From: Oscillospiraceae bacterium
GTDB lineage: Bacteria; Bacillota; Clostridia; Oscillospirales; Oscillospiraceae
Reading direction: 5' to 3'
Assembly (NCBI GenBank): GCA_021771265.1
Contig: JAETPK010000002.1
Coordinates: forward strand, 1-58,996
DNA length: 58,996 nt
Shown piece by piece: positions 39,578-50,666 of the stretch (position 1 is the first letter of the stretch; every line of letters starts with the position of its first letter). The notes below the pieces were generated by a model. It saw only the letters and a program-made list of their open reading frames with translations, was not told where the DNA came from and did no database searches. Both the position numbers and the translations under genes were made by a program.

Positions 39578-39842
39578 AGACCTGCCAAAAGGCAGGTCCC
39601 AGCCTGTCAAAAAAATCCAAAGGACTTTTTTGGCAGGCTTTACAATGCCTCGCTTTGCGGACAGCTCCGCAGCCCGAAAAGCTGCCGCTTTGCGGCGCAA
39701 ACGCCTGTTATCACAGGCTTTTTGCAGGCATTCGATTCAACACGAAGGGACTCCCGTCCCCTCGTACTCCCCTTGCTTTTTGCCGCCGTCTTTCCAATCC
39801 ATCAGGTTTTTGACAAACTGAGACCTGCCAAAAGGCAGGTCT
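39578..39842. repeat. palindromic MITE-like element, about 265 bp, non-coding
   Basis: GACCTGCC-AAAA-GGCAGGTC occurs at both ends (39579-39598 and 39822-39841). Beyond it the ends are inverted copies: the left reads CCAGCCTGTCAAAAA, and the right, reverse-complemented, reads TCAGTTTGTCAAAAA. Inside lie an 18-bp hairpin with two G-U pairs (39601-39618 / 39622-39639) and smaller ones (GCCTG / CAGGC). The left end, preceded by AAAAAA, also forms a terminator for minus-strand transcripts coming from ispF. No plausible gene is found in this 325-bp gap; the 90-residue track ORF looks like chance. Confidence 0.55.
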
Positions 39843-39847
39843 CCCAT

Positions 39848-40339
39848 TCAGTCCTCGTTCAGTTTTTCCAGCAGTGCCACCGCGTGGGCGGCCATGCCGG
39901 AGCCGTCGCCGGTGAATCCCAGGCCCTCCTCCGTGGTGGCCTTCACATTCACCTGCTCCGCCTCGATGCCCAGGGCCTCGGCGATATTGGCCGCCATTTG
40001 AGGACGGTAGGGCCCCACTTTGGGCGCCTGGGCCAGCAGCACCGCGTCGATGTTCACCACCGCAAAGCCCTTCTCGCCCAGCAGCCGTTCCACTTCCGCC
40101 AGCAGCTTCAGGCTGGAGATGCCAGCGTACCGGGGGTCCGTGTCCGGGAACAGCTTGCCGATGTCTCCCAGGCGGGCGGCACCCGTCAGGGCGTCCATGA
40201 CCGCGTGGACCAGCACATCCGCGTCAGAATGGCCCAAAAGGCCCCGCTCCCAGGGAATATCCACGCCGCCCAGAATGAGCCTCCGCCCTTCCACCAGCCG
40301 GTGGACATCATATCCGTGTCCGATCCGCAGATTCGTCAT
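39848..40339 (-). CDS. ispF: 2-C-methyl-D-erythritol 2,4-cyclodiphosphate synthase
   Basis: 163 residues. [11 protein letters not shown] and [17 protein letters not shown] carry the zinc ligands, and the end [24 protein letters not shown] is typical. It forms the cyclic diphosphate in the MEP route to isoprenoids. Its ATG overlaps the ispD stop. It is the third gene of carD-ispD-ispF. Confidence 0.97.
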
Positions 40340-46561: not shown

Positions 46562-47811
46562 GAGAATTCCTCTCCTGTTGCTTCTTCTTTGGCGGCGGCT
46601 TCCCCGGCCGCCCGGCCGGTGGCCCAGGCGATCTGCAAATTGAAACCGCCGGTATAGGCGTCCACATCGATGAGTTCTCCTGCAAAGTACAATCCCTTTA
46701 CAAGTCTTGACTCCATTGTGGTCGGATTGATCTCTGATACTTTGACGCCGCCGGAGGTAATGATGGCGTCCGTCACGGGGCAAGGGCCTGCAATTGCTAC
46801 CGGGAAATGTTTCAGAAGCTGGAGCAGGCCTCTCCGCTGTTCCTTGGTCAGGTCATGGACCTTCTGGTGAGGCGGGATCTCCGTCCATTCAACGACCACA
46901 GGAATGAGTTTTTGCGGCAGCAGATCATCCAAAGCATTGCAGAAATCGCTATTGGCATATTTCGTGAAATCAGACAGCAGCCGCTTGTCAAGCTGCTGCT
47001 CATCCAGGGCGGGTTTCAGGTCGATCTCAATGCGGTATGCTTTTTTCTCAAAATGCCGCATGTGGGCAGACGCGGACAAAATCAAAGGTCCGCTGACACC
47101 GAAATGGGTAAACAGCATTTCGCCGAAGTCCGTGTAAATTTTCTGATTGTTTTCAAATACTGTTAGGCCCACGTTCCGCAGGCTCAACCCTTGAAGCTGT
47201 CTGCCCACGCCGAAATCCCGCAGAGGAACCAAAGACCCCTGCAAGGGAGTCACCGTATGCCCAGCCTCCGCGGCCATGCGGTGGCCCTCGCCGGTAGAGC
47301 CAGTGGCGGGGTAGCTGACGCCGCCGGTGGCCAGAATGACGGCCTGAGCCGGATAGGCGCCCTTCTCCCCCGTGACGCCGCGGATGACGCCGCCGGACAC
47401 ATCCAGGGACACGGCCCGGTCCCGGACCAGGTGGACCTTCAGCGCCCGCAGCCGGCGCTCCAGGGCGCCGCTGACGTCAAAAGAGCGGTCGGACACCGGG
47501 AACACCCGGTTGCCCCGCTCCGTTTTCAGCGGCACGCCCAGGCTCTCGAAAAAGGCCATGGCGTCCCGGCCGTCAAAGCGGGAAAAGACGCTGTACAGGA
47601 ATTTGCCGTTTTTCGGCACGTTGGCCAGCAGCGTTTGCAGATCCGCGTTATTGGTGACATTGCACCGGCCCTTGCCGGTGATATTCAGCTTTTTGCCCAA
47701 GCGCTCGTTGGGCTCCAGCAGGGTGACGGCCGCCCCCTGCTCCGCCGCCGCAATAGCGGCCATCATGCCGGCGGCTCCGCCGCCCACCACTGTGATCGTC
47801 CGTTTATTCAT
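46558..47811 (-). CDS. HI0933/BaiN-family NAD(P)/FAD-dependent oxidoreductase
   Basis: 417 residues from ATG 47811 (a second ATG lies at 47814). FAD-binding VVGGGAAGMMAAIAAAEQG, GKKLNITGKGRCNVTNN, the ATGG motif in VILATGGVSYPATGS and the C-terminal GLYFAGELIDVDAYTGGFNLQIAWATGR are the family hallmarks. Some relatives are called BaiN and reduce bile-acid intermediates, but most have no known substrate. Overlaps the regulator gene upstream and cmk downstream. Confidence 0.9.
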   Translation of the reverse strand: MNKRTITVVGGGAAGMMAAIAAAEQGAAVTLLEPNERLGKKLNITGKGRCNVTNNADLQTLLANVPKNGKFLYSVFSRFDGRDAMAFFESLGVPLKTERGNRVFPVSDRSFDVSGALERRLRALKVHLVRDRAVSLDVSGGVIRGVTGEKGAYPAQAVILATGGVSYPATGSTGEGHRMAAEAGHTVTPLQGSLVPLRDFGVGRQLQGLSLRNVGLTVFENNQKIYTDFGEMLFTHFGVSGPLILSASAHMRHFEKKAYRIEIDLKPALDEQQLDKRLLSDFTKYANSDFCNALDDLLPQKLIPVVVEWTEIPPHQKVHDLTKEQRRGLLQLLKHFPVAIAGPCPVTDAIITSGGVKVSEINPTTMESRLVKGLYFAGELIDVDAYTGGFNLQIAWATGRAAGEAAAKEEATGEEFS

Positions 47812-49565: not shown

Positions 49566-50666
49566 TTAATCCGGCAAGCCGGTTTTTAGCGCGGCCATGG
49601 CAGGCTCCACGCTGGGCATCACGTTGCCGCCCGCCAGCAGACGCACCCGTCCGACCTCCCTGCCGTTCAATGCGAATACAGCCTCCCCCACCGCCTCTCC
49701 GGCGGAAATGGGCGCCGTGAGGGGCCCGTCCAGCTGAATGTCGGTGGTGACCTCCTCCCCCGGCCCCACGGGCCAGGAAAAGCTGTCCGCCACCACCAGG
49801 GCGACGGAGGACGCGACGCCGCCGGTGACGGCGGCTCGCTCCACCGGCTGGCCCAGCTTGGCAAAATACGCGGCGGGATACGTGGAAAAGCCGTATTCAT
49901 ACAGTGCCTGGTGGTCCGCCCAGTCATTGCCGTCCTGAAGGGTCACGGCCACCAGCCGCTGGCCGTTTTGCTCCGCGCAGCTGACCAGCGTCCGGCCCGC
50001 TGCCTTGGTAAAGCCGGTCTTCAGGCCGGTGCAGCCGTCCATATACCGCAGGAGCTTATTGTGATTAGTCATGGTCCGCCCACCGATGCTCACCGTCTTC
50101 GTGGAGGCGATGCGCATGAGCGTCTCGTTATTGGCGGCGGCGCAGGCCAAAAGCGCCATGTCCCGGGCGGTGGAGTAATGATGTTCATCGTCCAGGCCGT
50201 TGGGATTTGCAAAGGAGGAATCGTCCATGCCCAGCTCCCCGGCCCGGCGGTTCATCCGGTCCACAAATCCCTCCAGACTGCCGCCCACGTGCTCGGCGAT
50301 GGCCACGGCGGCGTCATTGCCGGAGCACAGCAAAAGGCCGTACAGCAGGGTCTCCAGCGTCAGCTGCTCCCCCTCCTGCAAATACATGGCGGAGCCCTCC
50401 GTCAGCGCCGCCTGGCGGCTGACGGTGACAATGTCGGACAGGTCCCCCTCCTCGATGGCCACCAGGGCCGTCAGGATCTTGGTGGTGCTGGCAATGAGCA
50501 TCCGGGCGTCAGCGTTCTGCTCGTACAAAACCCGGCCGCTGTCCACGTCCACCAAAATCGCCGCGGAGGCGGAAGTGCCAACCGCCAGCGACTGACAAGG
50601 AAAAATACTATACAGAACAAGCAGTGCTGCCAACACCGCTGAAAACCGCTTGGCACGCGTTTGCAA
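49566..50666 (-). CDS. D-alanyl-D-alanine carboxypeptidase (DacF/DacB type)
   Basis: 366 residues from TTG 50666 with GAGGTGA upstream. A signal peptide (RFSAVLAALLVLYSIF, cleaved near SLAVG) is followed by the penicillin-binding fold: SxxK in IASTTKILTAL, SGN in LLCSGNDAAVAIA and KTG in GLKTGFTKAAG. The C-terminal PBP5-like beta domain is present but has no clear terminal membrane helix. It trims pentapeptides. Its neighbours ytfJ, scpAB and rluB suggest a sporulation-linked cortex role like DacF or DacB. Confidence 0.92.
   Translation of the reverse strand: MQTRAKRFSAVLAALLVLYSIFPCQSLAVGTSASAAILVDVDSGRVLYEQNADARMLIASTTKILTALVAIEEGDLSDIVTVSRQAALTEGSAMYLQEGEQLTLETLLYGLLLCSGNDAAVAIAEHVGGSLEGFVDRMNRRAGELGMDDSSFANPNGLDDEHHYSTARDMALLACAAANNETLMRIASTKTVSIGGRTMTNHNKLLRYMDGCTGLKTGFTKAAGRTLVSCAEQNGQRLVAVTLQDGNDWADHQALYEYGFSTYPAAYFAKLGQPVERAAVTGGVASSVALVVADSFSWPVGPGEEVTTDIQLDGPLTAPISAGEAVGEAVFALNGREVGRVRLLAGGNVMPSVEPAMAALKTGLPD

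Follow-up and report, generated by a model that had tools for sequence, protein, structure and literature searches.

The stretch that follows ispF in the window (the whole analysed DNA, 58,996 nucleotides) contains a member of a new family of IS1182-type MITEs, of a hairpin-duplicating variant; it is neither an RNA gene nor a pair of ordinary terminators. Very probably, this non-autonomous MITE inserted at the ispF terminator, the terminator hairpin was duplicated, and the element was mobilised in trans. This reading is based on a family of repeats, their shared ends, the duplication of a hairpin specific to each locus, orthologous sites free of the element, and an autonomous IS1182 element that shares both the ends and the duplication of a hairpin.

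Boundaries and layout of the element

The preliminary description of the window placed a palindrome-ended element of about 265 bp at 39578–39842, and read it as a MITE or a structured RNA. The palindromes and the inverted ends are real. The exact 21-bp word AGACCTGCCAAAAGGCAGGTC occurs twice in the window (39578–39598 and 39821–39841), and the arms 39578–39613 and 39807–39842, which include an imperfect inverted continuation inside the palindromes, are 81% complementary across 36 nt. The palindrome has the form GACCTGCC-AAAA-GGCAGGTC and is the terminator hairpin of ispF; a whole-genome search yielded no further exact copy of it. Between the palindromes lies a dispersed repeat: the genome contains 11 copies with matches of 137 bp or longer (87–100% identical), and relatives of it occur in 8 of 60 related genomes, all eight belonging to the same genus. 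Given that the palindrome has no other exact genomic copy while the interior is dispersed, the mobile unit is the 221-bp stretch 39600–39820, and the palindromes are the duplicated target. Hence the extent proposed earlier was corrected, and the true ends are not the palindromes but CAGCCTGTCAAAAA and CAGTTTGTCAAAAA. When copies were compared side by side with their flanks, the unit spanned from CAG to CTG. Most copies are bracketed by a locus-specific hairpin identical on both sides, e.g. AGAAGGAGACTGCCRCAGGCAGTCTCCTTCT, AGGCGCGTGYCAGCGGCACGCGCCT or AAAGCAGGTGGAACGTGGTTCCACCTGCTTT.

Like other MITEs, the unit is short and multicopy, has terminal inverted repeats and lacks a transposase gene. 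No plausible gene is present within 39600–39820. The region 39578–39842 folds far better than shuffled sequences on either strand (z-scores −8.4 and −8.2), and its characterization as hairpin-rich and gene-free stands. The proposal that one end doubles as the ispF terminator is roughly right: the distal copy of the hairpin (39598–39579, minus strand) retains the T6 tract, whereas the proximal copy (39841–39822) is without a T tract. Coordinates of all features are listed in Table 1. We read the 83-aa product of the next gene as a small DUF3343-like protein. Two further matches to the end motif in the window, at 47539–47553 (one mismatch) and 49854–49868 (two mismatches), are possibly decayed ends or chance occurrences.

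Table 1. Features of the element and its neighbourhood in window coordinates
Feature	Positions	Strand	Remarks
Mobile unit, 221-bp MITE, CAG...CTG	39600..39820	+	Repeat family boundaries
Left terminal inverted repeat CAGCCTGTCAAAAAA	39600..39614	+	Matches ends of autonomous IS1182 elements
Right terminal inverted repeat CAGTTTGTCAAAAAC	39806..39820	-	Matches ends of autonomous IS1182 elements
Target duplication distal to ispF, AGACCTGCCAAAAGGCAGGTC	39578..39598	.	Minus strand: hairpin, then T6
Target duplication adjoining ispF, same hairpin	39821..39841	.	Minus strand: T tract no longer follows
Left-end internal hairpin (left terminal repeat and its inverted copy)	39601..39639	.	Covarying helix 1; 8 of 15 pairs changed on both sides
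Central branched hairpin region	39644..39732	.	Covarying helices 2-6
Third internal hairpin ACGAAGGGACTCCCGTCCCCTCGT	39742..39765	.	Helix 7
ispF, its terminator being the target	39848..40339	-	Orthologues in 57 of 61 genus genomes
Next gene downstream of ispF, 83 aa	39271..39522	-	Adjacency in relatives; other anchor of the empty site

Duplication of the target hairpin

Twenty-three copies, selected solely for their similarity to the element and not filtered for hairpins, were assessed for duplication. The flank duplication score was at least 13 in 20 of them, and in three copies the duplication was absent. Mismatched flank pairs score 5.9 on average (n = 506); two of them reach at least 14, for which tandem copies in one terminator of one genome may account. 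Stems of at least 6 bp lie within 18 of the 20 duplicated stretches; a stem of 7 bp arises in 1% of shuffled stretches. A second set, filtered for hairpins, comprised 26 non-redundant hairpin pairs from all loci. Here the duplications are 15–37 bp long; the loop has the same orientation in 22 pairs, is inverted in two (loci L046 and L395), symmetric in one and undecidable in one. Neither the outer A tract nor the outer T tract of the terminator is included in the duplication, and therefore joints at both stem bases fit best. The insertion mode of IS1272, in which the hairpin is deleted and no duplication arises, is not seen: the whole hairpin is present on either side of the element.

We infer that the element is mobilised in trans, that the cut is staggered at the base of the stem, that structure guides the choice of the target, and that insertion costs little. 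A transposase supplied in trans would bind the CAGNYTGTCRAAAAA ends and pair the two ends of the element. The target would be a transcription-terminator hairpin, picked by its palindromic, perhaps extruded, structure rather than by its sequence. If one strand is joined at each stem base, the whole hairpin falls within the stagger, and gap filling or repair would copy it, leaving a duplicate on either side. With a hairpin retained for both neighbours and the outer A/T tracts outside, the insertion is expected to be nearly harmless. Along the ispF strand, a T tract follows the distal hairpin but no longer the proximal one, so some read-through into the element may be expected. The insertion at ispF is probably old, since the genomic copies differ by about 6–17% and the assembly yielded no transposase gene.

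The loop inversion in two duplicated hairpins is not predicted by simple gap filling and counts against this mechanism. The hairpins could have been duplicated otherwise, by insertion beside a hairpin or an IS1272-like replacement, followed by hairpin-primed replication or recombination. The loop-flipped pairs, together with compensated arm changes at one locus (L006), do suggest a folded single-stranded state. Nevertheless, 22 of the 26 pairs are plain direct copies, and most duplications end near the element boundaries, as staggered joining predicts; we thus consider such a route improbable.

Several loci deserve separate mention. At L046 and L395 the loop of one hairpin copy is the reverse complement of the loop of the other (TTAC/GTAA and GA/TC, respectively), as if the hairpin had been flipped. 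At L006 (G000:C11:24264-24487) one hairpin copy has C-G where the other has T-A, a compensated change in the arms. Tandem elements with three copies of one hairpin at L038/L042 (G012:C10:83709-84176) may reflect either repeated insertion into one terminator or tandem duplication. Long hairpin duplications at L353 and L288 were assigned to other repeats.

Internal helices

Covariation was analysed in 20 aligned copies drawn from several genera. The alignment supports 48 base pairs, 25 of which have changes on both sides, compared with 4–8 in slid controls; no shuffle reached the observed values, with the reservation that this control leaves relatedness among the copies in place and that related copies inflate the compensatory count. 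The internal helices are real. Covariation of this strength and the strong fold would suit a dispersed structured RNA (a small RNA or an mRNA 3' element) acting in transcripts, i.e. the second of the two initial readings. However, an RNA should favour one type of mispair, and the alignment contains similar numbers of G-T (14; wobble in a plus-strand RNA) and A-C (18; wobble in a minus-strand RNA) mispairs (p ~0.6). Further, in a small sample and by our own reading, copies lie in both orientations relative to adjacent genes, also at convergent sites. The element has no family match in Rfam and no promoter-like site was found for it; its terminal repeats are common to a transposase-coding element. 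The helices covary, therefore, but show no sign of RNA function, and an RNA role is very unlikely. Given the equal mispairs and the two orientations, we infer maintenance of the palindromes at the DNA level, through a need of transposition or through palindrome correction. The compensated arm changes in the target duplication at L006 are of the same kind as the covariation of the helices.

An autonomous IS1182 partner

A scan with the end motif turned up the complete genome AP018533.1 (Clostridiales bacterium CCNA10), which contains four elements of about 1.5 kb with the ends CAGCTTGTCAAAAAACC and CAGCTTGTCAAAGAACG; the autonomous form measures 1516 bp. Three of the four are bracketed by duplicated hairpins of 32–33 bp, one of these three being loop-flipped. 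The 476-aa protein of the element belongs to the IS1182 transposases (NCBIfam NF033551, 393.9 bits vs the cut-off of 270) and has the Pfam domains DUF772, DDE_Tnp_1 and DDE_Tnp_1_6. In the genus of the window, IS1182 fragments in two genomes (G024 and G033) carry CAGGCTGTCGAAAAAGTC about 95 bp ahead of the first matched residue; this 18-nt sequence is identical to the left end of a MITE in G024. Thus, ends are common to the MITE and to insertion sequences coding for an IS1182 transposase, both in CCNA10 and in the same-genus fragments. No IS1182 transposase was detected at E <1e-20 in the assembly containing the window (161 contigs, 95% completeness).

Mobilisation by an IS30-family element would have a parallel in IS1630 from Mycoplasma fermentans, which targets and duplicates inverted repeats (cited in PMC7648426 and PMC3317919), with duplications of 16–26 bp (PMC3317919). 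But IS1630 has an IS30 transposase, none of the IS30 (HTH_38) loci examined across the genus carries the MITE ends, and those ends are found instead on an element coding for an IS1182 transposase. We give this source hardly any credence.

Other candidate sources were discarded. The DDE_Tnp_1 transposases in five MITE-bearing genomes do not carry the ends, and one such locus (L115) is a different insertion sequence adjoining a MITE relic. Locus L241 (G000:C135:3611-5192) is 1.58 kb long but contains no transposase reading frame, only a broken gene resembling that of a secreted protein. It has the same ends, lies between near-identical 34-bp hairpins and is a possible cargo-carrying form.

Element-free orthologous sites

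Orthologues of ispF were found in 57 of the 61 genus genomes, and 30 loci were read. In 22 of these, all from same-genus genomes, the same downstream gene lies 80–167 bp after ispF, with no element between them; the corresponding spacing in the window is 325 bp. Single hairpins with stems of at least 7 bp are present at 11 of these 22 sites, and two hairpins at none. The flanks from the window, rejoined with one hairpin, align to the element-free sites. None of the 22 is an empty site of exactly the same sequence. Since terminators differ in sequence among species, these sites are orthologous element-free sites rather than exact ones.

The initial MITE reading is thus borne out by the copy number, by the duplicated target and by the orthologous sites that lack the element. 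Two ordinary unrelated terminators separated by spacer DNA agree with hairpins that are intergenic and in one case carry a T tract, but this reading is already refuted by the multicopy interior (11 copies), the absence of the insert in relatives and the same arrangement at about 26 loci.

Comparison with known systems

IS1272/TnSha1, members of the IS1182 family from staphylococci, target terminator hairpins (PMC4923244, PMC5678879). The likeness extends from the transposase family to the recognition of the hairpin by structure, with no sequence consensus, and to insertion at the hairpin base. The difference is that there the hairpin is deleted, partly or wholly, with no duplication, whereas here it is duplicated as a whole; moreover, IS1272 is autonomous and the element at 39600–39820 is a MITE. 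MITEPye1, an IS1182-type MITE of Paracoccus yeei, likewise has terminal repeats similar to those of IS1182 and folds strongly in its interior, but has 4-bp direct repeats and 1–3 copies per chromosome, and no hairpin duplication is reported for it (PMC11578231). The pneumococcal SPRITE, RUP and BOX repeats (PMC10969869, PMC3049150) are also small, structured and intergenic, some of them being terminator-like; however, the terminator-like hairpin of SPRITE is part of the repeat, and here the hairpin belongs to the host gene.

No IS1182-type MITE with duplication of the whole terminator was found in the literature searched, ISfinder lying outside that search. The direct-repeat lengths that ISfinder gives for IS1182 vary widely, and hence hairpin duplication may already be recorded there.

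This class of elements seems to recognise the shape of a terminator, not its sequence. There appears to be a transposon group that reads terminators by structure and copies them on insertion, which would explain scores of low-harm intergenic copies in gut Oscillospiraceae. Whether a DDE transposase recognises extruded hairpins becomes a testable question. Another is why this branch of IS1182 duplicates the hairpin, yet IS1272 reportedly deletes it.

Spread of the ends and related elements

Exact matches to the end motif number 87 in G012, 69 in G024 and 123 in Pseudoflavonifractor An184, vs 0–1 in controls (0 in the control for G012), and many further related copies occur in Oscillospiraceae. 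Plasmid-borne IS1182 elements with CAGACTGTAGACAAA-type ends from E. faecium, Listeria and Sutcliffiella (L457, L459, L460, L461) also lie between duplicated hairpins, of 21–46 bp; therefore whole-hairpin duplication is not peculiar to the MITE. The IS1182 copies of S. simulans and Exiguobacterium are not located between duplicated hairpins. A scan of viral contigs with the end motif produced mainly chance matches.

We tentatively suggest, while leaning somewhat against so wide a generalization, that a broad group of Bacillota IS1182 elements (in Oscillospiraceae and, judging by the plasmid copies, in Enterococcus, Listeria and Sutcliffiella) targets the extruded hairpin, joins its ends at the stem bases and duplicates the host terminator, the loop flips being footprints of the extruded intermediate. 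If so, DDE insertion of this kind would be directed by structure, independent of sequence and endowed with a built-in safe-harbour outcome, and MITEs with scores of copies in one genome would be exploiting it.

A second MITE family, about 162 bp long, has the same ends and another interior. It is represented by L240 (G000:C34:24531-24693), which has a perfect 32-bp hairpin duplication, AGAGGACCTGTCCCCATGGGAACAGGTCCTCT; related ends occur in L242, L243, L245 and L251. In annotation, such elements resemble RNA genes or pairs of terminators, and they are a frequent end point for the contigs of related MAGs. Many contigs of this kind, including those of G024 and G028 (L089-L101), start within an element, in many cases some 140 bp away from unique sequence, which indicates that the repeats break assemblies.
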